Shown here one piece after another: positions 7 to 34,012 of a stretch of 36,685 bases of DNA. This DNA comes from an uncultured Flavonifractor sp. GTDB lineage: Bacteria; Bacillota; Clostridia; Oscillospirales; Oscillospiraceae. Below the pieces are notes generated by a model, which saw only the letters and a program-made list of their open reading frames with translations, was not told the DNA's origin and searched no databases. The position numbers and the translations under genes were made by a program. The DNA lies in contig NZ_CALWXV010000025.1 in the NCBI RefSeq assembly GCF_944385615.1, positions 1 to 36,685 on the forward strand. The letters are read 5' to 3'. Each line of letters opens with the position of its first letter. Position 1 is the stretch's first letter.

Positions 7-285
7 TTTTTGGCATAATAAAGCACCCCACTTGTTATTCAGTATATCATACTGTCTAACAAATGGGGTGCAGTTCAGTGCTCAGGTGGTTTTTTATGGT
101 CAAAAAAGCCTCGCAGAGTTTGCGCCCGCAGGCGCAAATAAAGTAAGATCCGTTTTCCCCGGCGACATGCGCGTCGGGGAAAACACTTCTCAGCCCGCAA
201 GTGTAGCATTGCTGCGCCAATGGCGGAGCAATGATGCGCGCGGCGGGCTGCATCCTGCTCAAAAAGTGGCTATGCCACTTTTTTG
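7..285 (+). repeat. Structured RNA-like repeat, copy C
   Basis: No gene lies in the first 290 bases. The stretch opens with CATAATAA and a long hairpin: GCACCCCA 23-30 pairs with 64-71, TTGTTA 32-37 with 57-62, and CAGTAT 40-45 with 49-54. Next come GTCAAAAAA, the block GCCTCGCAGAGTT (108-120), a stem TTTGCGCC/GGCGCAAA (119-138, loop CGCA), a stem 152-160/176-184 with a 15-base cap containing ACATGCG, the block CACTTCTCA (184-192), and a branched stem CAGCCCG/CGGGCTG (191-250). Two other places in the window share the blocks and the architecture: 22684-22920 on the minus strand and 31960-32221 on the plus strand. This copy lacks the small hairpin before GCCTCGCAG and has a different last stem. 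Function is unknown; it could be an independent RNA or a non-autonomous mobile element. Confidence 0.7.
260..285. terminator. Bidirectional terminator-like hairpin after jag and repeat copy C
   Basis: The ten-base stem AAAAAGTGGC (261-270) pairs with 274-283 around the loop TAT, and the 3' arm runs into six Ts. It starts 8 bases past the jag stop on the minus strand and closes repeat copy C on the plus strand, so it could stop transcripts from both sides. Confidence 0.6.
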
Positions 286-2684: not shown

Positions 2685-3032
2685 TCAGGCCCCCTCCTTT
2701 CGGAGCAGGCCCAGCTTGTCCGCCAGGGAGAGCAGGCTGCGCTCCACCTCCCGGTACCGGCAGTGGCCGGCCCGCACCCGGGCCACCACCACCAGGTCAT
2801 AGCCCGGCAGGAAGCGGTCCTCATGGATGCGGTAGGCCTCCTTGATGCGGCGGCGGGTGCGGTTGCGGATCACCGCCTTGCCCACCTTCACCCCCACGGT
2901 GATGCCCAGACGGCTGCGGGGGGAGTTGTTCTTCCGGCAGTAGAGGGCCAGGCAGGGATTGACCGCGCTTTTGCCCTTGTTGTACAGGCGGCGGAACACA
3001 TGGTTCTGCTTCAGGGATACGGTGTGCTCCAC
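2685..3032 (-). CDS. rnpA: Ribonuclease P protein component
   Basis: This 115-residue protein is the protein subunit of RNase P, which matures tRNA 5' ends. The basic signature [14 protein letters not shown] (the RNR motif) is present, preceded by the [14 protein letters not shown] strand region and the N-terminal [10 protein letters not shown] segment. I place the start at the GTG 3032-3030, because AGGAGG lies seven bases upstream. An in-frame ATG at 3056 would add eight residues, but that reading puts the ribosome-binding site inside the gene. It sits between rpmH and yidD in the conserved order. Confidence 0.93.
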
Positions 3033-3133
3033 GGCGGTCCTCCTTTCCCGATCCAAAGTTCCGTATGCTGCGCAGGGGCGGTGGGAAAAGCTCCCCCGCC
3101 CCTATGAAATGCCCTATTCCATTTGCGGACCCA

Positions 3134-3268
3134 TCAGTGGGTCAGACGGGCGCGGCCCTTCGCGCGGCGGCGGGCCAGGACCTTGCGGCCGTTGGCGGTA
3201 CGCATACGCTTACGGAACCCGTGCTCCTTGGAGCGCTGGCGCTTCTTGGGCTGATAGGTACGAACCAT
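3134..3268 (-). CDS. rpmH: 50S ribosomal protein L34
   Basis: A 44-codon frame encodes a classic L34: [20 protein letters not shown], then [20 protein letters not shown], ending in RLTH. Length and sequence match the family along its whole length. An AGGAGGTG Shine-Dalgarno sequence lies just upstream of the ATG. It is the first gene of the operon that continues to rnpA, yidD, yidC and jag, and a perfect-consensus promoter lies about 120 bases upstream. Confidence 0.97.
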
Positions 3269-3387
3269 GTTGGGACACCTCCTGTACAAAAATCAAGCGG
3301 GTCGCCCCGCCCACCACAACAGCCTTTCGGCTGCGGTCGTCAAGAAAAACTGCTTTACACCGTATGGCTTTCCACGATGCACATGGT

Positions 3388-3417
3388 ATTATAGCCTATT
3401 TTAAAATGGCCTGTCAA
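3388..3417 (-). promoter_or_regulatory. Sigma-A promoter of the rpmH operon
   Basis: On the minus strand, TTGACA (3417-3412) and TATAAT (3393-3388) are both perfect and separated by 18 bases. The predicted start leaves a leader of about 110 bases before rpmH. Confidence 0.85.
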
Positions 3418-3541
3418 CCACTATTTTGGTTTCTTTTTTGGTTTTTTTCTGTCCTTAACCGGGGAATACCATATCTTGTGGCCGGAGGAGGAGGCGGGGA
3501 CAGGCGTAGGGGCGGAGCGGGGCCGCCAAACCGTTCCAAAC

Positions 3542-3642
3542 TGTGGACGGCAAAACTGGGCGGGCGGCCTGCCGGGGCTGTTCCTGTGGAAAACACGGTG
3601 GAAAAGTGGTTTCTTTTTATTATTGTATCGTTGCTTTCCACC
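3542..3642. promoter_or_regulatory. DnaA-type boxes upstream of dnaA
   Basis: Four DnaA-box-like 9-mers lie here: TGTGGACGG (3542-3550), TGTGGAAAA (3585-3593), GGTGGAAAA (3597-3605) and CTTTCCACC (3634-3642). Only the second matches exactly the TTTTCCACA form that dominates between dnaA and dnaN. The last one overlaps the dnaA -35 element, which would fit DnaA autoregulation. The rest of the 571-base rpmH-dnaA gap holds the two promoters, a leader hairpin and nothing else I can support. Confidence 0.55.
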
Positions 3643-3659
3643 GGCGGATTTGCTATAAT
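3631..3659 (+). promoter_or_regulatory. dnaA promoter with extended -10
   Basis: TGCTATAAT (3651-3659) is a perfect extended -10 element. TTGCTT (3631-3636) lies 17 bases upstream as a weak -35. A DnaA-type box at 3634-3642 overlaps this -35. The transcript would have a leader of about 170 bases. Confidence 0.75.
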
Positions 3660-3759
3660 GATATGCGTTAAATTATCTGCAATCCTTCCGGCGGTCGGAC
3701 CAATTCCGGCGGCCGGTACCTGCCGTTGGCGGGCGCAGTCCAGACAGAGACCTTCAGGT

Positions 3760-3781
3760 CTTGAAAGCCCAGGCTTTCAAG
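3760..3781 (+). other. Hairpin in the dnaA leader
   Basis: CTTGAAAGCC (3760-3769) is followed two bases later by its exact complement GGCTTTCAAG (3772-3781). It lies inside the dnaA 5' leader, 58 bases before the start codon. There is no clean T-tract after it (GTCTTGTTTTG), so it is more likely a stability or regulatory stem than a terminator. Confidence 0.5.
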
Positions 3782-3839
3782 GTCTTGTTTTGCTGCGCCG
3801 TCTCCGGCCATCCATTTTGACGAAAGAGGTGGTCTTTCC

Positions 3840-5156
3840 GTGAATCTGCCGGCCGATCTCTGGGCCAAGGTCCTCTCCCTGATGGAGCAGGATATGACAG
3901 CCACCACCATCAACACCTGGTTTGACGACGCCACCCCCGTGGCCCTGGAGTCCAACCGGTTTGTGCTCCACACCCCCTCCAACTTCAAGCGGGATATCAT
4001 CAACTCCCGCTATCTGCCCACCATTCAAAAGGCCCTTCATGAGCTGTTCTCCTCTGATTTTGAGGTGGTGGTACTGGGCGAAGGGGAGCTGGAGGGCTAC
4101 GGCCAACAGAAAAACGACGATCTGTTCCTCCCAGGCACCGAGGAGTATACCTTTGAGCGCTTTGTGGTGGGCTCCTCCAACAAGTTCGCCCACGCCGCCG
4201 CCCTGGCGGTGGCCGAGCAGCCCGCCCAGACCTACAACCCCCTGTTCATCTACGGCGAGTCCGGCCTGGGCAAGACCCACCTGCTCTACGCCATCGCCCA
4301 CAAGATCCATCAAAACCACCCGGAATTCCGCATCGTCTATATCAAGGGCGATTCCTTCACCAATGAGCTGATCCAGGCCATCCGGGAGGGCCGCAACCCG
4401 GAATTCCGGGAAAAATACCGCTCCGCCGACGTGTTCCTCATGGACGACGTGCAGTTTATCGCCGGCCGGGAATCCACCCAGGAGGAGATGTTCCACACCT
4501 TCAACACCCTGTACGAGGCCAAACGGCAGATCGTGTTCACCGCCGACCGCCCCCCCAAGGAGATGCTGCGGCTGGACGACCGGCTGCGCACCCGGTTTGA
4601 GTGGGGCCTGCCTGTGGACATCCAGCCCCCCGACTACGAGACCCGGGTGGCCATCATCAAAAACAAGGCCATCCGCCGGGGCATGAACCTGCCCGACCCG
4701 GTGCTGCAATATATCGCGGAAAACATCACCTCCAACGTGCGGCAGATCGAGGGCACCGTCAACAAGATCCTGGCCTTCCAGGAGCTGATGGGGGAGAGCG
4801 TGGACGTAGACACCGTCACCCGGGCGGTGCGGGACATGTTCAAGGACAAGGCCGACTTTCTCCCCTCCCCCGAGGTCATCATTGACGAGGTGGGCAAGTT
4901 CTACAACATCGAGCCGGAGGCCCTCCGGGGACAGAGCCGCACCAAGGACACCGCCCTGGCCCGGCAGATCGCCATGTACCAGATCCGCCGCATGACCAAC
5001 CTGTCCCTGAAGGAGATCGGCAAGGAATTTGACAACCGGGACCACGCCACCGTCATGCACTCCATCGACCGCATCGAGAAATTGACCAAGCAAAGCCCGG
5101 AAATTGCAGAGGTCATCAAGGACATCAACGCCAACATCAACGCCCGCTATGAATAG
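3840..5156 (+). CDS. dnaA: Chromosomal replication initiator DnaA
   Basis: This 438-residue AAA+ initiator binds DnaA boxes and opens the origin. Domain I is at about 1-80 (LWAKVLSLMEQDM). A short linker leads to the AAA+ core, with Walker A GESGLGKT (139-146), Walker B VFLMDD (198-203) and an arginine-rich sensor region (RLRTRFEWG). Domain IV has a helix-turn-helix with the recognition motif DNRDHATVMHS near 398-408. The usual motif is GGRDHTTV, so Ala403 replaces the common Thr. The start is GTG at 3840, after AAGAGGTGG. It is divergent from rpmH and followed by the box cluster. Confidence 0.98.
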   Translation: MNLPADLWAKVLSLMEQDMTATTINTWFDDATPVALESNRFVLHTPSNFKRDIINSRYLPTIQKALHELFSSDFEVVVLGEGELEGYGQQKNDDLFLPGTEEYTFERFVVGSSNKFAHAAALAVAEQPAQTYNPLFIYGESGLGKTHLLYAIAHKIHQNHPEFRIVYIKGDSFTNELIQAIREGRNPEFREKYRSADVFLMDDVQFIAGRESTQEEMFHTFNTLYEAKRQIVFTADRPPKEMLRLDDRLRTRFEWGLPVDIQPPDYETRVAIIKNKAIRRGMNLPDPVLQYIAENITSNVRQIEGTVNKILAFQELMGESVDVDTVTRAVRDMFKDKADFLPSPEVIIDEVGKFYNIEPEALRGQSRTKDTALARQIAMYQIRRMTNLSLKEIGKEFDNRDHATVMHSIDRIEKLTKQSPEIAEVIKDINANINARYE

Positions 5157-5168
5157 GGCTGGATGAGG

Positions 5169-5206
5169 CTTGCATATCAGTGAATATTTATTGAATTTTA
5201 TGCAAG
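5169..5206. other. AT-rich core bracketed by an inverted repeat (candidate unwinding element)
   Basis: CTTGCATA (5169-5176) and its exact complement TATGCAAG (5199-5206) enclose 22 bases of which only four are G or C. It starts 13 bases after the dnaA stop and 28 bases before the first DnaA-type box. This is the most AT-rich stretch of the dnaA-dnaN gap, so a DNA-unwinding element is plausible. A weak dnaA terminator is the alternative, but it lacks a T-tract and has a large loop. Confidence 0.45.
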
Positions 5207-5233
5207 AAAACGGATCCCTTCTCCATGGGCCGG

Positions 5234-5390
5234 TTTTCCACATTTCCACACAGTTTTGCGGATATGTGGAAAGGGGAATGTGGAAAACTTTTTTCGCCTT
5301 CTTTTTCTGTGGAAAGACCCCGATTTTTTTCCACACCCCCTGTGGACAGATTTTTCTTAGCGGTTCAACGGGTTTTTCCACTTTTCCACA
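5234..5390. other. Origin of replication: DnaA-box cluster (oriC)
   Basis: Nine DnaA-type 9-mers lie in 157 bases. TTTTCCACA occurs at 5234-5242, 5327-5335 and 5382-5390, and as its complement at 5279-5287. Near matches are ATTTCCACA (5242-5250), TGTGGAAAG (5265-5273 and 5308-5316), TGTGGACAG (5341-5349) and TTTTCCACT (5374-5382). None is the textbook TTATCCACA. The position between dnaA and dnaN and the switch of gene orientation around this region both support the origin call. The 5391-5502 remainder holds only the dnaN leader and its ribosome-binding site (GGAGG). Confidence 0.88.
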
Positions 5391-5502
5391 ATGTTTTCCC
5401 CTACGGCTTACTATTACGACATTTATCCCTCCTCTCTCCTGAGGAGCGGGAGAAATCCAGCGGAGCGTCTCCGCTCCCGATGAAACGGAGGATGCAAGTT
5501 TT

Positions 5503-6615
5503 ATGAAATTTTCCTGTGAAAAGGCCCTGCTGCAATCGGCCATTTCCACCGCCTCCCGTGCCGTATCCCCCAAAAGCTCCATTTCCGCTCTGGAGGGTAT
5601 TCTGGTAGAGGCCGGACAGGAGCTGCGGCTCACCGGTTACAACCTGGACACCGGCATCCGTACCATTGTCCCTGCTGAGATCAGCGAACCGGGTACCCTG
5701 GTGCTGGCTGCCCGGCTGTTCGGCGAGATCATCCGAAAGCTGCCCGACGACGTCATTACCTTTGAGACCAACCAATATATGGTACACATCACCTGCGGTC
5801 CCAGTGAATTCAACATTTTGGGCACCGATCCCGAGGAATTCCCCGAACTGCCCACGGTGGAGTACCAAAATTCCCTGCTCCTGTCCCAGTCCAAGCTGAA
5901 ATCCATGATTTCCCAGACCATTTTTGCCGTCAGCGACAACGAAAGCCGGCCGGTCCACACCGGCTCCCTCTTTGAGGCCGACGACAACGGCCTTACCATC
6001 GTTTCGGTGGACGGTTTCCGGCTGGCCCTCCGCCATGAGGCCATTGACCGGAAGGACGGAGCACCAGAATTTTCCTTTGTGGTGCCCGGCTCCGCTTTGT
6101 CCGAGGTGGAAAAGATCTGTTCCGACTGCGACGAGCCGGTGTCAGTCACCCAGGGCGCCCGGCACGTCATGTTCAAGGCGGGCACCACCATGCTGGTGAC
6201 CCGGCGGCTGGAGGGAGAATTTTTGGCCTACCGTCAGGCCATCCCCCGGAACAACGGTATCTGTCTGGAGGGGGAGACCAGGACCCTGCTGTCCTCCATC
6301 GAGCGGGTGTCCCTCATCATCACTGAGAAGCTGAAATGCCCCCTGCGGTGCGTCTTTGAGGACGGATTGATGAAAATTTCCACCAAAACCGCCATTGGAG
6401 ACGCCTATGATCAGTGCCCTGTCACCGGCGATGGCCAGGGGTTGGAGATCGGCTTCAACAACAAATATTTGATGGATGCCCTGAAGGCTGCCCCCGCCGA
6501 CAAGGTGCGGCTGGAGCTGTCTACCAGCGTGTCCCCCTGTGTCATCCTGCCCGCCGAAGGGGAGGAGCGTTTCCTCTATATGGTGCTGCCCGTCCGTTTG
6601 AAGGCAGGAGAGTAA
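5503..6615 (+). CDS. dnaN: DNA polymerase III beta subunit (sliding clamp)
   Basis: This 370-residue protein is the ring clamp that tethers polymerase III to DNA. It opens MKFSCEKALLQSAISTASRA, typical of the family, and shows three similar clamp domains of about 120 residues each. The conserved ending LPVR (YMVLPVRLKAGE) forms part of the partner-binding cleft. Length fits Firmicute DnaN. It follows oriC directly and GGAGG lies upstream of the ATG. A short GC-rich hairpin (6621-6639) follows the stop without a T-tract, so transcription may continue into the next gene. Confidence 0.97.
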   Translation: MKFSCEKALLQSAISTASRAVSPKSSISALEGILVEAGQELRLTGYNLDTGIRTIVPAEISEPGTLVLAARLFGEIIRKLPDDVITFETNQYMVHITCGPSEFNILGTDPEEFPELPTVEYQNSLLLSQSKLKSMISQTIFAVSDNESRPVHTGSLFEADDNGLTIVSVDGFRLALRHEAIDRKDGAPEFSFVVPGSALSEVEKICSDCDEPVSVTQGARHVMFKAGTTMLVTRRLEGEFLAYRQAIPRNNGICLEGETRTLLSSIERVSLIITEKLKCPLRCVFEDGLMKISTKTAIGDAYDQCPVTGDGQGLEIGFNNKYLMDALKAAPADKVRLELSTSVSPCVILPAEGEERFLYMVLPVRLKAGE

Positions 6616-6667
6616 AAGCAGGCGGCCTTTACGGCCGCCCATCCCCCCATGGAAAGGAAGAATCCGT

Positions 6668-7108
6668 TTGGAACTGCATCCTTACCTGCACAAGGTTCAA
6701 TTTTACGAGACAGACGGCATGAGCATCGTCCACCATGGAAATTATATCCTATGGATGGAGGAGGCCCGTACCGATTTTATGAACCAGATCGGCTGGAGCT
6801 ACCACCGGGCGGTGGACGCGGGCATCGACTTTGCCGTCACCGACGTCAGCTGTGCCTACCGCTCCATGACCCGGTTTGGGGAAACGGTGGCCATTACCAT
6901 GGCGGTCCAGGCCCTGTCCCCGGCCAAATTGCAGCTATCTTACAAAATGGTGAACGCGGGCACCGGGGAACTGCGGGCGGAGGGCACCTCCGGCCACTTC
7001 TTTTACGACCGGGCCAAGGCCCGGCCGGTGGCCCTGAAAAAAGCCCTGCCGGAGCTGTGGCAGCTGCTGGAATCCCTGTACCATAAAGGGGGAAAAACCG
7101 AGAAATGA
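6668..7108 (+). CDS. Acyl-CoA thioesterase, 4HBT/YbgC-type hotdog fold
   Basis: This 146-residue protein is a single hotdog domain. The 4-hydroxybenzoyl-CoA-thioesterase signature is seen at [17 protein letters not shown], with Asp16 in the catalytic position and His22/His23/Asn25/Tyr26 following as in YbgC. Such enzymes hydrolyse acyl-CoA thioesters; the substrate cannot be read from sequence. The start is a TTG (6668-6670) with AAAGGAAG upstream; no better ATG fits the fold. Its stop overlaps the next start (ATGA), so it is co-translated with the S4 protein. Its place between dnaN and yaaA is not the textbook order. Confidence 0.88.
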
Positions 7109-7317
7109 AGACCATTCAGTCGAAAATCAACACGGAATTTATCAAACTGGAATCCCTGCTGAAATTTGAGGGCCTGGTGGAGACCGGCGGGGAGGCCAAG
7201 GAGCGTATCCAGGCCGGTGAGGTAACGGTCAACGGGGAAGTGTGCACCATGCGGGGCAAAAAGCTGCGCCCCGGCGACGTGGTGGCCCTGGATGACCTGC
7301 GCGTGGAAGTGGTATGA
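7105..7317 (+). CDS. yaaA: S4-domain RNA-binding protein YaaA
   Basis: This 70-residue protein is an S4-type RNA-binding domain of the YaaA family found between dnaN and recF in Firmicutes. The fold signature is visible as [22 protein letters not shown], split by me into its helix pair, then [22 protein letters not shown]. It overlaps the thioesterase stop upstream and the recF start downstream by four bases each (ATGA), so the three are translationally coupled. Its molecular role is poorly known; ribosome-related RNA binding is inferred from the domain. Confidence 0.9.
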
Positions 7318-8423
7318 TCGTTTCCTCCATTTCCCTGGACTTTTTCCGCAATTATGTCCATTTTGAGGACCATTTTTCCCCCCATGTCAATGTGATCTGG
7401 GGGGAAAACGCCCAGGGCAAGACCAATCTGCTGGAGGGCATCTCCTATCTGTCCACCGCCTCCTCCCACCGGGCCCGGTATGACCGGGAGCTGATCCAGA
7501 TGGGACAGACCCACGCCGCGGTCAAGGCGGGGGTCTTTTCCCGGGGGCGGGACTTTACCCTGGAGGCCAGGCTCCAAAAGGGGGCCCGGCGGCAGCTTTT
7601 TGCCAACGGGGTAAAGTTAAAAACCGCCGGGGAGCTGGCGGGGGTGCTGAACACCGTCCTGTTTTGCCCGGAGGATCTGTATCTCATCCGGGAGGGGGCG
7701 GCGGTGCGCCGCCGGTTTCTGGACAACTGCATCTGTCAGCTGCGGCCCCGGTATGCCGAGGCCCTGGCGGAATACCGCCGTCTGTACGAGCACAAAACCC
7801 GGATTTTGCGGGATTGGGAGGAACATCCCTCTTTGCTGGACACCCTGGAGGAGTTCAATCTGCGCATGGCCCAGACCGGGGCCCTGCTGATCCACTACCG
7901 GGCCCACTTTATCAAGCGGCTGCGGGAGGTGACCCCCCCCATCCACCGGGATTTTTCCGGCGGACGGGAGGAATTGGGGCTGCGGTATACCACGGTGAGC
8001 ACCATTTCCGACCCTTTGGCTCCCACCCGCACCCTGCTGGAACAGCTGGTGGAGCACCAAACATCCCACCGAAAGGCGGAGCTGGAGGCCCGGCAGTGTC
8101 TGTCGGGACTCCATAAGGACGATCTGGTGGTGGAGCTGGACGGGGTGAGCGCCAAAGCCTTCGCCTCCCAGGGCCAGACCCGGACGGCGGCCCTATCTTT
8201 GAAGCTGGCTTCCCGGGAAATTTTCTTTCAGGAGACGGGGGAGTGGCCGGTGCTGCTGCTGGACGACGTGCTCAGCGAGCTGGACCACCGGCGGCAGGAG
8301 TTTGTGCTCAAACGCATCAACGGGGGACAAGTATTTATTACTTGTTGTGAGGAGATGAGCCTGGACCGGCTGGGGGAGGGGAAAACCTTCCACATCCGGG
8401 AGGGGGCCCTGGTGGAATTGTGA
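7314..8423 (+). CDS. recF: DNA replication and repair protein RecF
   Basis: This 369-residue SMC-like ATPase loads RecA at gaps with RecO and RecR. Walker A is GENAQGKT (30-37), preceded by the typical opening ISLDFFRNY. The ABC signature region ([12 protein letters not shown]) lies near 285-297 and Walker B/D-loop [11 protein letters not shown] near 313-324. Length is normal. The ATG overlaps the yaaA stop. The 158 bases after the stop contain a DnaA-type box cluster rather than a clear terminator. Confidence 0.97.
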
Positions 8424-8430
8424 ACAACCC

Positions 8431-8565
8431 GGTGGAAAAAGGCTGTTTTTGTTTTTCCACAGCAGATATATTACAAATAGTTATCAAATATCTGTGAAAA
8501 CAGACCTGTGAGAGGGGAACCATCTTCACCGAGTTTTCCACAATCCCGGCCCAAATTGTGGACAG
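8431..8565. promoter_or_regulatory. Second DnaA-type box cluster with AT-rich centre
   Basis: In the gap after recF, TTTTCCACA occurs at 8453-8461 and 8534-8542, with GGTGGAAAA at 8431-8439 and TGTGGACAG at 8557-8565. Between them, 8465-8494 is very AT-rich and bracketed by AGATAT/ATATCT. The boxes match the oriC form, 3 kb away. This could be an origin sub-site, a DnaA reservoir or a DnaA-controlled promoter for the next genes. Confidence 0.55.
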
Positions 8566-8581
8566 TATGTAGGAGACGCCT

Positions 8582-8893
8582 ATGATTCTTTTGATTTTGG
8601 CCCTCATTCCCCTGGTGGGGGGCCTTGTGCTGGAATTTCTGGTGTGCCAGTTTACCCGCAAGGGCAGCCGCCTGTGGAAGCTGCTGCCCCCCATAGGGGC
8701 CGCTCTGGTCACCGTTTTGCTGGTGTACTACCGGCTCGGCCTGTGGGAGTCGGAGGACTCCCCGGTGACCCAGCTGCTCTTTATCCCCGGCCTGCCCGCC
8801 CTGGGCTTTTTTGTGGGGCTGTTTGCCGGCTGGCGGCTGTACCGGCGGCTGTGGCGGCCCAGAATCATTCAGGACCCGGGGGAGGGGCGGTAA
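8582..8893 (+). CDS. Small membrane protein of unknown function
   Basis: This 103-residue protein has three likely membrane segments: about 2-22 (LILALIPLVGGLVLEFLV), 35-50 (LLPPIGAALVTVLLVYY) and 66-85 (LLFIPGLPALGFFVGLFAG), then a basic tail RLYRRLWRPR. I recognise no family. GGAG lies before the ATG, and its TAA is immediately followed by the remB ATG, so the two are one transcription unit. The position between recF and remB suggests an envelope role, but that is only a guess. Confidence 0.75.
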   Translation: MILLILALIPLVGGLVLEFLVCQFTRKGSRLWKLLPPIGAALVTVLLVYYRLGLWESEDSPVTQLLFIPGLPALGFFVGLFAGWRLYRRLWRPRIIQDPGEGR

Positions 8894-9157
8894 ATGTATC
8901 TGCATATCGGTCAGAACGTCATCATCCCCTTTCGGGATGTGGTGGGGCTCTTCGATCTGGACAATACCAGCGCCTCCCGCCTGACCCGGTCTTTTCTGGA
9001 GCGGGCCGAAAAGGAGGGGCGGCTGGTCAACGTGTCCGACGATCTGCCCCGGTCCTTTGTGCTGTGCAGCGGGCAGGAGGGGCCCCCTGTGGTCTATCTC
9101 TGCCAGCTCTCCACCGCCGCCCTGCTGCGGCGGGCGGAAAACAACAGCTTTGAGTGA
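8894..9157 (+). CDS. remB: RemB/YaaB-like DUF370 regulator
   Basis: This 87-residue protein matches the RemB (YaaB, DUF370-like) family: it opens MYLHIGQNVIIPFRDVVGLF and has the DNTSASRLTRSFLE segment. In Bacillus subtilis remB (yaaB) occupies the same place between recF and gyrB and takes part in activating biofilm matrix genes. It begins directly after the preceding stop codon. A similar role here is inferred from family and synteny; the targets are unknown. Confidence 0.87.
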   Translation: MYLHIGQNVIIPFRDVVGLFDLDNTSASRLTRSFLERAEKEGRLVNVSDDLPRSFVLCSGQEGPPVVYLCQLSTAALLRRAENNSFE

Positions 9158-9169
9158 ACGATCCTTCGG

Positions 9170-11189
<2,020 letters not shown>

Positions 11190-11250
11190 GGCTTCGGGCG
11201 TCTCCGACGCCCCGCCTTTGACCTTATCATGAAGATTGAGAGGCAACAGC

Positions 11251-13758
11251 ATGAGCAAAAAGCCACAGTACGACCCGGAGGAAATCCGGTACCCGGACCA
11301 GACCATCGTCACCTCGCCCTTGGTGAAGGAGATGGAACAGTCCTATATCGAGTACGCCATGAGCGTCATCAAGGGCCGGGCCCTGCCCGACGTGCGGGAC
11401 GGTTTGAAGCCGGTCCACCGGCGCATCCTGTACGCCATGTATGAGGACAACCTCACCGCCGACAAGCCCTTCAAAAAGTCCGCCACCTGCGTGGGCGACG
11501 TGCTGGGCCGGTATCACCCCCACGGCGACGCCAGCGTGTACGACGCCCTGGTCCGGCTGGCCCAGGACTTCTCCATGCGCTACCCCCTGGTGGACGGCCA
11601 CGGCAACTTCGGCTCCATCGACGGCGACCCCGCCGCCGCCTACCGGTACACCGAGGCCCGTATGTCCAAGATCTCCGACGAGATGCTGCGGGACATCGAA
11701 AAGGACACGGTGAACTGGGACCCCAACTTCGACGAGTCCCGGAAGGAGCCCCGGGTGCTCCCCTCCCGGTTCCCCAACCTGCTGGTCAACGGTTCGGCGG
11801 GTATTGCCGTGGGCATGGCCACCAACATCCCGCCCCACAACCTGCGGGAGGTCATTGACGCCACCATCTGCGTGCTGGACAACCCGGAGGCCACCCTGAC
11901 CGACCTGATGGAGCACGTCAAGGGCCCCGATTTCCCCACCAAGGGTATCATCATGGGCCGCTCCGGCATCCGGGCGGCCTACGCCACCGGCCGGGGCCGG
12001 GTGTGCGTCCGGGCCCGCACCGAGTTTGAGGAGTTCGGCCAGAACCGCACCCGCATCATCGTCACCGAGATTCCCTACCAGGTCAACAAGCGGATGCTCA
12101 TCAAAAACATGGCCGACCAGGTGGAGGACAAGCGCCTGGAGGGCATCTCCGACATCCGGGACGAGTCCGACCGCAACGGTATGCGGGTGGTCATCGAGCT
12201 CAAGCGGGACGCCAACCCCCAGGTGGTCTTGAACCGCCTGTTCGCCCAGACCCAGCTCCAGACCACCTTTGCCATCAATATGCTGGCCCTGGTGGACGAC
12301 CAGTCCCAGCCCAAGATCCTCTCCCTGCGGCACATCTTGGACGAGTACATCGCCTTCCAGGAGGAGATCATCGTCCGCCGCACCAAGTACGACCTGAAAA
12401 AGGCCCAGGAGCGGGCCCACCTGCTGGAGGGCCTGCTCATCGCTCAGGACAACATCGACGAAGTCATCCACATCATCCGCTCCAGCTACGACAACGCCAA
12501 GGAAAACCTGATGAGCCGCTTTGCCCTGGACGAGGTCCAGGCCCAGGCCATTCTGGATATGCGTCTCAAGGCGCTCCAGGGCCTGGACCGGGAGAAGCTG
12601 GAGGCCGAGTACAAGGAGCTGGAGGCGCGCATTGCCTACTTCAATGAGCTGCTGGCCAGCGAGGAGAAGATCCGGGGGGTGCTGAAGGAGGAGCTGTCCG
12701 CCATCCGGGACAAGTACGGCGACGAGCGGGTCACCGAGATCCAGGACGTGGAGGACGAGATCGACATTGAGGACCTGATCGAGGAGGAGGAGTGTGTCTT
12801 TACCCTCACCGCCGGGGGTTACATTAAGCGCACCCCCGCCTCCACCTACCGGACCCAGCGCCGGGGCGGCAAGGGCATCACCGCCATGTCCACCAAGGAA
12901 GAGGACTATGTGGACACGGTGTTTACCGCCTCCACCCACGACTATATCCTCTTCTTCACCAATAAGGGCCGGGTCCACCGGAAGAAGGGCTACCAGATCC
13001 CCGAGGCGGGCCGCACCGCCAAGGGCACCAATCTGGTGAACGTGCTGCCCATCGAGCAGGACGAGAAGGTCACCGCCATGATCCATCTGCGGGAGTTCCC
13101 CGAGGATCGGTATCTGGTGATGGTCACCCGCAGCGGCACCGTCAAGCGTATCCAGCTCTCCTCCATCCACACCGCCCGGAAGGCGGGCATCCGCTGTATC
13201 ACCCTGGACGAGGGGGACGAGCTGATCTGCGTCCGGGAAACCGACGGGGAGCAGGCCATTTTGATCGTCACCCACGACGGCATGGCCATCTGCTTCAAGG
13301 AGACCGACGTGCGGTGCATGGGCCGGGACGCCTGCGGCGTCCGGGGCATCAGCCTGCGGGCGGGCGACTTTGTAGTGGGCGCTGCCCGGGCCAAATATGA
13401 CCATCAGGTGCTGATGATTACCGAAAACGGCTACGGCAAGCGCACCGAAATGGACGAGTATATCCGTGCAGACGGCCCCCAGAAGCGGGGCGGCTTCGGC
13501 CTGAAGGGCTACAACGTCACCGACAAGACCGGCCCCGTGGTGGGGGTCAAGGTGGTGAACGACAACGACGACGTGCTGGTCATCAACGACGCGGGCGTCA
13601 TCATCCGCATGGCTGTGTCCGGCATCTCCACCTACGGCCGCACCGCCCAGGGGGTCAAGATCATGAATCTGGAGGATGGTGTAAAGGTTATTTCCTTTGC
13701 ACGTACAGACCATGAGGAGGAAGAGGAGGACACCGGCGCTTCGGAAGGGGAGGAATAA
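11251..13758 (+). CDS. gyrA: DNA gyrase subunit A
   Basis: This 835-residue protein is the breakage-reunion subunit. The catalytic tyrosine is Tyr133 in [12 protein letters not shown], and the GyrA-specific box appears as QRRGGKGI. The C-terminal beta-pinwheel repeats fill the last 300 residues and the tail is acidic ([15 protein letters not shown]). In the quinolone-determining loop the protein reads [10 protein letters not shown], so Ala94 stands where Escherichia coli has Ser83. The ATG at 11251 is chosen because GAGAGG precedes it; a TTG five codons upstream overlaps that site. Three bases separate it from the next gene. Confidence 0.98.
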
Positions 13759-17063: not shown

Positions 17064-17292
17064 TAAGAAAAAACCGCCCTGAGCCTACGCTCAGGGCGGA
17101 AAAAATCCGTGGTACCACCTGAATTCGGACGATTTGTCCGCACTCAAACCCGGTAACGGTGGGGGACCGGCGGGGCATTGCCTCCCCGCGGCTCACGGGC
17201 GCCTTCTCGCCAGCTCCGCCAAAGCCTTGCACCGTCCGGCTTCTCTCTGGGGCGGAAATTTGGGGGTACTGTTCCCGGTCACTGCCTTATCG
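17064..17292 (-). promoter_or_regulatory. T-box riboswitch leader of glyS
   Basis: On the minus strand the T-box core AGGTGGTACCACGG lies at 17120-17107. It is followed by an 11-bp terminator stem CCGCCCTGAGC/GCTCAGGGCGG (17099-17074) and a T-tract (17073-17065). An AGAGAG motif and a GGTG-containing hairpin lie in the upstream part, as in stem I. Uncharged tRNA-Gly should favour the antiterminator and so glyS expression. I could not fix the specifier triplet; GGC triplets are present. Confidence 0.88.
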
Positions 17293-22682: not shown

Positions 22683-22685
22683 ACC

Positions 22686-22717
22686 TGTCAAAAAAGACCT
22701 GTAGGTCTTTTTTGACA
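22686..22717. terminator. Palindromic terminator after gpr and repeat copy B
   Basis: TGTCAAAAAAGACCT (22686-22700) pairs perfectly over 15 bases with 22703-22717. It sits three bases past the gpr stop and also closes repeat copy B on the minus strand. Confidence 0.8.
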
Positions 22718-22920
22718 AAGAGCAGCATGACGGATGGGGTTCGATTTCTTGCGAAATTGTCACCCCATCCGCCATGAGAAGCGTCCTTTCCGAGGCACAT
22801 GTCCCCGGAAAGGACAGATTTTGATTTGATTCCGCGCCTATGGGCGGCGGAACTCTGCGAGGCTTCCTTGTTGGGAAGTCTTTTGACAAGCTGAGATCTG
22901 CTGCAACGTACAGCAGGTCT
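22718..22920 (-). repeat. Structured RNA-like repeat, copy B
   Basis: Read on the minus strand after lepA: a first hairpin (22920-22894), GTCAAAAGA (22887-22879), a small hairpin GAAGG-type (22878-22863), GCCTCGCAGAGTT (22863-22851), a GC stem (22852-22830), the linker AATCAAAATC, a stem GTCCTTTCC/GGAAAGGAC (22815-22783) capped by 15 bases with ACATGTG, and a 15-bp stem (22776-22726) with inner ATTTC GCAA GAAAT. The same order and blocks occur in copy A. This fills the 244-base gap between the convergent gpr and lepA genes. Confidence 0.75.
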
Positions 22921-31940: not shown

Positions 31941-32181
31941 GCCCAAAAGACCAACAGCCTTTTTGCATAATAATCCCCCGGCGGAACTTCCGCCGGGGGT
32001 AACTTGTGTCAAAAGAAATGCCCTTGTTAGGGGAGCCTCGCAGAGTTCCACCGCCCGCAGGCGGTGGAATGAAATCAAAATCCGTCCTTTCCGGGGACAT
32101 GCGCCTCGGAAAGGACACTTCTCATGACGAATGGGGTGACAATTTCACAAGAAATCGAACCCCATTTGTCATGCAATCTCT
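31941..32181 (+). repeat. Structured RNA-like repeat, copy A
   Basis: After the MoeA fusion: TTTTTGCATAATAA (31960-31973), hairpin CCCCCGGCGG/CCGCCGGGGG (31975-31999), GTCAAAAGA (32008-32016), small hairpin CCCT/AGGG (32021-32032), GCCTCGCAGAGTT (32035-32047), stem TTCCACCGCC/GGCGGTGGAA with loop CGCA (32046-32069), linker with AATCAAAATCC, stem GTCCTTTCC/GGAAAGGAC (32084-32116) with a 15-base cap GGGGACATGCGCCTC, CACTTCTCA, then a 15-bp stem (32123-32173) with inner ATTTC ACAA GAAAT. Copies B and C share the order and blocks. It fills the 296-base gap before aspS. Confidence 0.75.
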
Positions 32182-32220
32182 GCTCCAAAAAGACCATTGG
32201 TCTTTTTGGAGCATTTTTTT
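32182..32220. terminator. Terminator closing repeat copy A, next to the aspS stop
   Basis: GCTCCAAAAAGACC (32182-32195) pairs with 32199-32212 around ATT, and seven Ts follow on the plus strand (32214-32220), overlapping the aspS stop codon. On the minus strand the same stem lies directly after aspS. Confidence 0.8.
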
Positions 32221-34012
32221 ATTCCTCGTCCTCTTTCTTGGTGCAGACGATGTTCAGCTCATCCAGCTGGGCCTGGGTGACGAAGGAAGGGGCCCCCATC
32301 ATCAGGTCCTGGGCGTTCTTGTTCATGGGGAAGGGGATGATCTCCCGGATGGACTCCTCGCCAGCCAGCAGCATGACCATCCGGTCCACGCCGGGGGCGA
32401 TACCGGCGTGGGGGGGCGCGCCGTAGGTGAAGGCGTTGTACATGGCGGGGAACTTGGCCTTCACGTCGTCCTCGCCCAGCCGCACCAGCTGGAAGGCCTC
32501 GATCATGATCTCCGGGTCATGGTTCCGCACTGCGCCGGAGGACAGCTCCACGCCGTTGCACACCAGGTCGTACTGATAGGCGGTGATGCTCAGGGGGTCC
32601 ACCTGGCCCTCCGCCGCTTTCTTCAGGATCTCCAGGCCGCCGTTGGGCATGGAGAAGGGGTTGTGGCAGAACTCCAGCTGGCCGGATTCCTCCCCGATCT
32701 CGTACATGGGGAAGTCCACGATCCAGCAGAACTCATACCGCTCCTTGTCCATGTGGTTGGGGCAGAAGGCGCCCAGCTTGGAGCGCAGCACACCGGCGGT
32801 CTTTTGGGCGGCCAGCAGCTTGCCGGCAGTGAGGCCCACGAAACAGCCGGGCTCCAGACCCAGGGCGGCCACCACCTGGTCCTTGATGGGCTGGACGAAC
32901 TTGGCGATGCCGCCTACCACCTCGCCCTTCTCGTCCAGGCGGAACCAATAGGCCTTGTTGCCAGACTGGACCTCCACCTCATTGCAGATGCCGTCGATCT
33001 GCTTGCGGGTGCCCTCAAAGCCGGTGACCACCACAGCCTTGACGGTGTTGCCCTCAAAGGGCCCGAAGCCGCAGGAGCCCAGTACCTCGGTGGCGTCGGT
33101 GACGGTCAGGTCAATGCGCAGGTCGGGCTTGTCCGAGCCGTACTTGTCCATGGCCTCCAGATAGGAGATGCGGCGGAAGGGAGCCTCGGAGGCCACGTTA
33201 TAGGCGCCGTACTTGGCAAAAATGGGGGGCAGCACGTCCTCCAGCACGGCGAACACGTCCTCCTGACCGGCAAAGGCCATCTCCATGTCCAGCTGATAGA
33301 ACTCGCCGGGGGAGCGGTCGCCCCGGGCGTCCTCGTCCCGGAAGCAGGGGGCGATCTGGAAATACTTATCAAAGCCGGAGGCCATCAGCAGCTGCTTGAA
33401 CTGCTGGGGAGCCTGGGGCAGGGCGTAAAACTTGCCGGGATGTTTTCTGCTGGGTACCAGATAGTCCCGGGCGCCCTCGGGGGAGGAGGCGGTCAGGATG
33501 GGGGTGGTGATCTCCATAAAACCGTGGTCGATCATGGCGGCCCGGAGGGCGGCCACCACCTGGCAGCGGAGGATGATGTTGTTCTTGACCTCCGGGTTGC
33601 GGAGATCCAGGTAGCGGTAACGTAGCCGCTGGGTCTCGTCGGCCTCCCGGCTGCGGTTGACCTGGAAGGGCAGCTCATTGTGGCGGCAGCGGCCCAGCAC
33701 CTCGATTTTCTCGGGCACCACCTCAATCTCGCCGGTGGGCAGCTTGGGGTTTTTGGAATCCCGCTCCCGCACCACGCCGGTGACGGCAATGGTGGACTCC
33801 TTGTTCAGGGCCTTGATGGTCTTGACCATCTCCTCGGTCTCGGCCACCACCTGGGTGGTGCCGTAGAAGTCCCGGAGCACCACAAAGCCCAGGCTGGCCC
33901 CTACCTCACGGAAGTTTTCCAGAAAGCCGGCCAGGGTGACGGTCTGGCCCACATGCTCCATCCGCAGCTCCCCACAGGTGTGGGTGCGGTAGGCGGTTTT
34001 GACATTTGCCAT
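32219..34012 (-). CDS. aspS: Aspartyl-tRNA synthetase
   Basis: This 597-residue class II enzyme charges tRNA-Asp and has the bacterial layout. An OB-fold anticodon domain (about 1-105) is followed by the catalytic core with RLRYRYLDLR, SPEGARDYLVPSR, KFYALPQAPQQFKQLLM and FRDEDARGDRSPGEFYQLD, then the GAD insertion (about 290-410), and motif 3 PHAGIAPGVDRMVMLL near the end. Whether it also charges tRNA-Asn cannot be decided from these residues. It lies 37 bases after the S-layer-homology gene, downstream of hisS. Confidence 0.96.
   Translation of the reverse strand: MANVKTAYRTHTCGELRMEHVGQTVTLAGFLENFREVGASLGFVVLRDFYGTTQVVAETEEMVKTIKALNKESTIAVTGVVRERDSKNPKLPTGEIEVVPEKIEVLGRCRHNELPFQVNRSREADETQRLRYRYLDLRNPEVKNNIILRCQVVAALRAAMIDHGFMEITTPILTASSPEGARDYLVPSRKHPGKFYALPQAPQQFKQLLMASGFDKYFQIAPCFRDEDARGDRSPGEFYQLDMEMAFAGQEDVFAVLEDVLPPIFAKYGAYNVASEAPFRRISYLEAMDKYGSDKPDLRIDLTVTDATEVLGSCGFGPFEGNTVKAVVVTGFEGTRKQIDGICNEVEVQSGNKAYWFRLDEKGEVVGGIAKFVQPIKDQVVAALGLEPGCFVGLTAGKLLAAQKTAGVLRSKLGAFCPNHMDKERYEFCWIVDFPMYEIGEESGQLEFCHNPFSMPNGGLEILKKAAEGQVDPLSITAYQYDLVCNGVELSSGAVRNHDPEIMIEAFQLVRLGEDDVKAKFPAMYNAFTYGAPPHAGIAPGVDRMVMLLAGEESIREIIPFPMNKNAQDLMMGAPSFVTQAQLDELNIVCTKKEDEE

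Follow-up and report, generated by a model that had tools for sequence, protein, structure and literature searches.

Introduction

IS1272 and TnSha1, two members of the IS1182 family, transpose into hairpins, often those of terminators, without preference for a primary sequence; the two reports describe the hairpin as partly deleted or replaced, with no duplication of the target (PMC4923244, PMC5678879). The pneumococcal repeats BOX, RUP and SPRITE are characterized as small, dispersed, structured and probably parasitic, and some BOX copies are transcribed (PMC3049150). Bacterial MITEs, according to a further account, have terminal inverted repeats, target duplications and stem-loop transcripts, and insertion sequences are their likely source (PMC10969869).

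Here we describe a family of non-autonomous mobile elements (MITEs) that is large, occurs in gut bacteria, is apparently undescribed, and targets hairpins such as transcription terminators. Its choice of hairpins is like that of IS1272 and TnSha1; unlike there, the hairpin is duplicated here, both by insertion sequences and by the small element. BOX, RUP and SPRITE, which we compared by description and not by sequence, belong to other hosts, and the abstract of their description reports no duplication of a hairpin target for them (PMC3049150). The features that set the element apart from MITEs in general, as outlined in the account already cited (PMC10969869), are the spread of its core through one bacterial family, where 77 of the 106 genera sampled have it, RNA-type covariation, and hairpin targets. 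No published description of the element was found in the literature searched, namely that in PMC.

Layout of the three copies

The window, a stretch of 36,685 nucleotides from an uncultured Flavonifractor sp., holds copies of the element at 31960-32221 (+; copy A), 22684-22920 (-; copy B) and 7-285 (+; copy C). The initial annotation had proposed that these three share one order of parts, and on reading all three copies and the common order were present: a left hairpin, a GTCAAAA-like block, an optional small hairpin, GCCTCGCAGAGTT, a GC-rich stem (P1), an A-rich linker, a capped 13-bp stem (P2, whose length counts one G-U pair), CACTTCTCA, a long stem (P3) and a terminator-like hairpin. The long stem and tail had also been taken as common to all; they are so in copies A and B, but copy C carries an unrelated version. 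Because there are at least two unrelated versions of P3 and tail among the copies of the element, what every copy shares is GCCTCGCAGAGTT-P1-linker-P2-CACTTCTCA, hereafter the core. It lies at 32035-32124 (+) in copy A, 22775-22863 (-) in copy B and 108-192 (+) in copy C.

Copy A is flanked on its left by the hairpin CCCCCGGCGGAACTTCCGCCGGGGG (31975-31999), which is terminator-like on the minus strand. The block that follows on the plus strand, TTGTGTCAAAAG (32004-32015), appears by eye to be a decayed relative of the terminal repeat CAGNCTGTCGAAAAA. The core then opens with the conserved single-stranded block GCCTCGCAGAG (32035-32045, +) and continues with the P1 stem-loop (32046-32069, +; assigned by covariation), the linker, which is its least conserved unpaired part (32070-32083, +), P2 with the cap GACATGYGC and a third pair from the loop that is usually G-U (32084-32116, +; again by covariation), and the conserved block ACTTCTCA (32117-32124, +). 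P3 is here of type 1, with a GAC..TCGA internal loop (32124-32172, +), and the right end is a terminator-like hairpin (32181-32213) with a T-tail (32181-32220 in all, +). Folded as RNA, positions 32001-32221 give a z of -10.0 against shuffled sequences. The fold prediction also closed with a helix GCAGAG/CTCTGC, which by eye looked inconsistent among copies and was dropped, as was a CACTT/AAGTG pairing in P3.

Copy B has the core GCCTCGCAGAG-P1-linker-P2-GCTTCTCA (22775-22863, -), a left terminal repeat CAGCTTGTCAAAAGAC (22878-22893, -), which was read against other ends, and a right-end hairpin TGTCAAAAAAGACC..GGTCTTTTTTGACA (22686-22717, -) that contains the right terminal repeat. In copy C the core, GCCTCGCAGAG-P1-linker-P2-CACTTCTCA (108-192, +), is of type 2, with the cap GCGACATGCGCGT; it is followed by a P3 of type 2 (GCCCGCAAGTGT..GCGGGC; 193-248, +) and the right-end hairpin GCTCAAAAAGTGGC..GCCACTTTTTTGA (256-287, +).

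Judged by gene names read from translations, copies A and B both sit between convergent genes: a molybdopterin-type gene and aspS border copy A, and lepA and a protease-like gene border copy B. Copy C begins at the contig edge and faces the end of jag. Copy A showed no promoter-like site. Elsewhere in the window, a T-box leader (RF00230, 112.6 bits) lies at 17089-17291 (-) before a gene that reads as a glycyl-tRNA synthetase, and 2685-13758 carries, also by reading, rnpA-, dnaA-, dnaN-, recF-, gyrB- and gyrA-like genes in that order, probably a replication origin region.

Copy number and distribution

The three copies are real but far from the total. A DNA search of the source genome with the annotated stretch returned 35 matches at E 0.001 or better, some of them short or self-complementary, and a pattern search allowing up to three mismatches gave 37 hits, against 8 for a reversed control. 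In all, 28 distinct core sequences were extracted; further copies were truncated or had no P2 and P3. We built a covariance model, R1, from 25 of the 28 aligned cores. The search with such a model, which the initial annotation had suggested, uncovered many further homologs in genome, genus and family. R1 finds 35 matches in the source genome, which is one of 17 of 20 genomes of the genus with a match at E 0.001 or better; the number per genome runs from 0 to 88, and three of nine near-complete genomes have 0-3 copies.

In the family Oscillospiraceae, where the filters were stricter and no more than 14 candidates were scored per genome, R1 matched 171 of the 300 genomes sampled and 77 of the 106 genera. 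When 28 of these positive genomes were searched more fully, they held 2-114 matches each. At the level of the class, 6 of 391 genomes matched, in a sample for which the number of host-family members is not stated. The matches were strong in three genomes, all of this family; the three weak ones outside it (E 1.1e-4 to 8.6e-4) were treated as chance. Since R1 was made from source-genome copies, divergent relatives are probably under-counted.

A pattern scan of contigs, with many chance matches among those listed, yielded 80 loci for examination, of which 32 match R1 at E 0.01 or better. The R1-positive records among the matches listed belong to Flavonifractor, Pseudoflavonifractor sp. An85, Sporobacter termitidis, Candidatus Evtepia, Intestinimonas, Avoscillospira, Enterenecus and Ruminiclostridium, and to Oscillospiraceae, Ruminococcaceae, Clostridiales, Clostridia and Eubacteriales bacteria. 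Plasmid and phage collections searched with copy A gave no match.

Shortened and enlarged copies also occur. Five loci (L014, L017, L018, L033 and L043) are without P2 and P3 or more, and three of them (L017, L018 and L033) retain P1 and the right-end hairpin; copies of this kind look like deletions of a palindromic middle. At L079, P3 is enlarged by a long internal insertion.

The initial annotation recognized no known class in the element, and no Rfam family covers it. With E up to 1 on the window, no credible family fell on the element, and with E up to 10 on copy A alone, none reached its gathering score. Among five further loci, the sole match at gathering score was to Collinsella-1 (RF01700), at L042 2007-2197 (+), with 36.9 bits against a gathering score of 35. 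This match runs antisense to the element, across P1, the neighboring terminator and an IS1182-type end.

Ends and duplicated hairpins

In many copies the same hairpin occurs twice, once in each flank. A direct repeat scoring 12 or more was present in the flanks of 33 of 108 usable copies, compared with 1 of 535 control pairs in which left and right flanks were taken from different copies. A second set comprised 130 usable copies, of which 27 had a direct repeat scoring 20 or more. These 27 repeats are 23-41 bp long (median 29) and are nearly all hairpins, mostly terminator-like; 16 are without mismatch and the others have 1-4. In 25 of the 27, the hairpin reaches to within one base of one or both ends of the repeat, and in 16 it comes within two bases of both. 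One repeated hairpin, at L149, is an element-type right-end hairpin and not a host hairpin.

Most copies (103 of 130) score below 20 and so have no detectable hairpin duplication. The proportion with a score of 20 or more was 2 of 26 usable copies in the source genome and 9 of 37 in the genus genome G002. Neither copy A nor copy B has a hairpin duplication, their flanks sharing at most 9 and 10 bases, respectively, and the flanks of copy C, which is cut by the contig edge, share none. The mobility of the window copies is thus inferred from the element family.

The clearest cases have the left end CAGGCTGTCGAAAAA and the right end CGACACGCTG or CGACAGTCT. On reading, terminal inverted repeats like CAGNCTGTCGAAAAA are found in many copies; they are decayed in copy A and absent in L053, L065, L070, L094 and L210. 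In these five loci the usual left end is missing and the core directly follows a terminator-like hairpin and a T-run; they may be older copies, or may have arrived by another insertion route. Six loci (L039, L040, L056, L085, L090 and L095) have a second right-end module, resembling GTGTCGA..TCGACACGCT, after the usual hairpin, and L127 has the related IS end CAGCGTGTCGAGAAA.

The element is short, and its core lengths, 84-90 nt, differ by non-multiples of three, in keeping with a lack of conserved coding capacity. It thus combines the hallmarks of a MITE: no coding, terminal inverted repeats, target duplication, variable copy number and ends in common with an autonomous element. Group IIC introns also insert beside terminator stem-loops; the terminal inverted repeats and the hairpin duplication of the element point instead to a DDE transposase.

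The aspS locus was compared with its counterparts in 16 other genomes of the genus, where gene order beyond aspS differs and where, in one case (L185), the aspS end was not located. None had a strong R1 match, the best reaching 26.5 bits (L174) against 112.3 for copy A itself, and the comparison yielded no exact empty site for copy A. In four genomes of the genus (L173, L174, L177 and L182) a different short insertion adjoins the 3' end of aspS; behind it the last part of the gene recurs, stop codon included, so that the end of the protein is kept. The second copies match over 77, 77, 77 and 47 bases, respectively, and the insertion resembles a further mobile element, one that makes a long target duplication.

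A probable IS1182-family partner

The ends of the element recur in insertion sequences. In 20 genomes of the genus, 10 match the IS1182 transposase model NF033551 at E 0.001 or better and 4 exceed its curated cut-off of 270 bits; L100 scores 401, L101 370 and L355, from another genus, 385. Two complete IS1182-family elements, L100 (1571 bp, genome G005) and L101 (1568 bp, G002), start CAGCCTGTCGAGAAA, finish TTTTTCGACAG(G/C)CTG, and have duplicated hairpins on both flanks. L355, in the element-rich genome G084, likewise has element-type ends and a hairpin duplication. L375, of the same genome, has both element-type ends, which in L355 and L375 take the form CAG(A/C)CTGTCGAAAAA; L370, from the element-rich G068, has one such end. 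L102 has related ends, with two mismatches, and no hairpin duplication was seen there. In the source genome, an IS1182-type end adjoins a copy of the element at the edge of contig C40 and is 86.6% identical to L100 over 164 bases.

Presence of the IS family was compared in 40 further genomes, 20 element-rich and 20 without a match in the family survey. IS1182 matches occurred in 10 of the former and 9 of the latter, so there is no genome-level association of the element with IS1182 presence, and presence of the family alone is uninformative. Two genomes of the genus with 46 and 36 element copies (G017 and G018, drafts 79% and 85% complete) have no IS1182 match. The type of end is more telling, in small numbers. 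Two IS1182 loci from element-free genomes (L356 and L358) have repeats of the type GGGGCTGTTG(C/A), each also with one lone site two mismatches off the pattern; at two loci from element-rich genomes (L357 and L359), a matching pair of ends was not found. We searched 30 IS1182 loci for the core and none carried it.

Orientation toward neighboring genes

Crude gene calls identified both neighbors for 97 of 115 copies; the caller errs, the right neighbor of copy C being a shadow frame. The genes are convergent at 31 of the 97 copies, tandem with the element in sense at 32, tandem with it antisense at 24, and divergent at 10, figures for which there is no control. Of the 27 hairpin duplications, 13 have an A-tract ahead of the left copy and 4 a T-tract after the right one, with both present in 1 (a tract being five or more of eight bases). 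Many of the duplicated hairpins look like intrinsic terminators, more often pointing against the sense strand of the element, which speaks against sense read-through as a rule and slightly lowers its odds. The imbalance of 13 to 4 would fit an element that favors one orientation with respect to the terminator. The idea of a dedicated 3' UTR element, which the initial annotation had entertained, thus finds no support in the form in which it was put, given 32 sense against 24 antisense tandem contexts and a T-tract side that more often opposes the sense strand.

RNA-type evolution of the core

The initial annotation had also noted that loops and linkers are conserved while stems vary. This holds for the single-stranded blocks of the GCCTCGCAGAG type, which are kept while P1 and P2 covary; the linker is the least conserved of the unpaired parts. 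In 25 copies from the source genome, 98.6% of P1/P2 pair cells are paired, against 45-55% in controls with slid partners, and double changes occur at 16 of the 23 pairs. A wider set of 79 copies spans many genera; in its alignment, which was fitted to the model and so leans toward structure, 99.2% are paired (slid controls, 44-56%) and all 23 pairs show double changes; because copies are phylogenetically non-independent, these double-change counts, like the mismatch counts below, are not counts of independent events. The 15 pairs of columns with the highest mutual information in the 79 copies are all stem pairs. The best pair of unpaired columns is an exchange of A..G for G..A across the P2 loop, in 7 of the 79 copies and again in 7 of a 221-copy set; these swaps possibly represent few events.

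The 221 copies were admitted on Watson-Crick pairs only, so that neither G-U nor A-C was favored. At the third P2 pair from the loop, 152 of them have G-U, 49 A-U, 8 G-C or C-G and 1 U-A, and 11 are unpaired. Elsewhere in P1 and P2, G-U mismatches number 40 and A-C mismatches 8, from 40 and 8 distinct hairpins and of 20 and 7 distinct position/pair types. Read from the opposite strand, a G-T mismatch becomes an A-C, so a DNA palindrome should give both about equally. P3 does: G-U and A-C number 18 and 19 in one set and 23 and 17 in the 221 copies. Without a clear G-U excess, P3 may be a DNA-level palindrome or simply less constrained.

Nearest copies were compared within the genomes G000 and G002 (17 and 31 comparisons, leaving out cores of other length and copies with few P1/P2 pairs). 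Per site, differences run at 0.10 in the linker and at 0.03-0.04 in the single-stranded blocks, while pair-breaking changes stand at 0.005 and 0.003. These patterns suggest that selection acts on the P1-P2 core as sense-strand RNA, with a G-U bias as expected for that; the evolution of P1 and P2 thus suggests that the RNA has a function.

Discussion

Overall, we favor the view that the element is a MITE family of roughly 240-280 bp, mobilized in trans into hairpins by IS1182-family transposases and carrying a core selected as RNA, and we give this a probability of roughly 0.7. Shared ends, hairpin duplications, swings in copy number and a conserved core are what the sequences themselves display. 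The IS1182-type ends, the hairpin target duplications and the RNA-type evolution of P1 and P2 favor the last of the three possibilities raised by the initial annotation, a mobile element that is non-autonomous and whose RNA matters.

We infer the following scheme of trans-mobilization and strand transfer. An IS1182-family transposase would act in trans on the ends of the element, CAGNCTGTCGAAAAA and its inverse, and join them, on opposite strands, to the two bases of a hairpin, which would typically be terminator-like. Repair by filling in the gaps would then duplicate the hairpin. The insertion would separate one copy of the hairpin from its old T-tract, and the other copy would retain it; because one copy keeps its T-tract, neighboring genes should still terminate and the element should be read in a 3' UTR, in either orientation. 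A protein of the host or of the transposon could dock on the P1-P2 RNA, so that insertions are tolerated or spread is favored, although this role is a guess and a doubtful one. A wider reading, which we hold tentatively, is that of an undescribed, SINE-like class of RNA with hundreds of copies in one gut family, lodged between IS1182-type ends, harmless as 3' UTR at terminators, and with a fold kept by a host or transposon protein that reads the P2 cap.

The element could instead be a plain MITE of the DNA level, its stems being palindromes kept by template switching or cruciform biology and its RNA irrelevant. Mobility, targets that are themselves palindromes, the near equality of G-U and A-C in P3 (18 and 19; 23 and 17) and the want of a clear orientation bias toward sense transcription all sit well with this. 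Palindrome repair would not, however, be expected to produce the 40 to 8 excess of G-U in P1 and P2, to keep G-U at one place in P2 in 152 of 221 copies, or to leave conserved single-stranded blocks and an A..G/G..A swap across the P2 loop, and we regard the explanation as unlikely, if a serious one. The core could also work for the transposon itself, for instance as RNA bound by the transposase that raises its activity on carriers: copies retain the pairing even as their linkers drift, and copies without P2 and P3 exist as apparent decay products. Against such a role, none of 30 IS1182 loci carries the core and presence of the element does not follow that of IS1182, which makes it improbable to our minds.

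A regulatory RNA of the host, or a 3' UTR element, that had a fixed role in the cell and lay near terminators by circumstance would also be expected to evolve as RNA; it could account for occurrence in 171 of 300 family genomes and for the few divergent-promoter contexts (10 of 97, a figure without a control). It is nonetheless very hard to reconcile with copy numbers from 0 to 114, hairpin duplications, ends held in common with insertion sequences, 0-3 copies in three of nine near-complete genomes of the genus and no strong orientation bias, and we consider it highly improbable. The suggestion of a stand-alone RNA with a fixed place is likewise not supported, with 0-88 copies in 20 genomes of the genus and no strong match at 16 other aspS loci.

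The element would add to this gut-bacterial family an abundant, RNA-like family that has no Rfam entry. Its recognition would correct annotations of 3' UTRs and terminators in the host family and would reveal a second outcome of IS1182 targeting, in which the hairpin is duplicated rather than lost. It would also offer a direct test case for selection on RNA within a mini-transposon.
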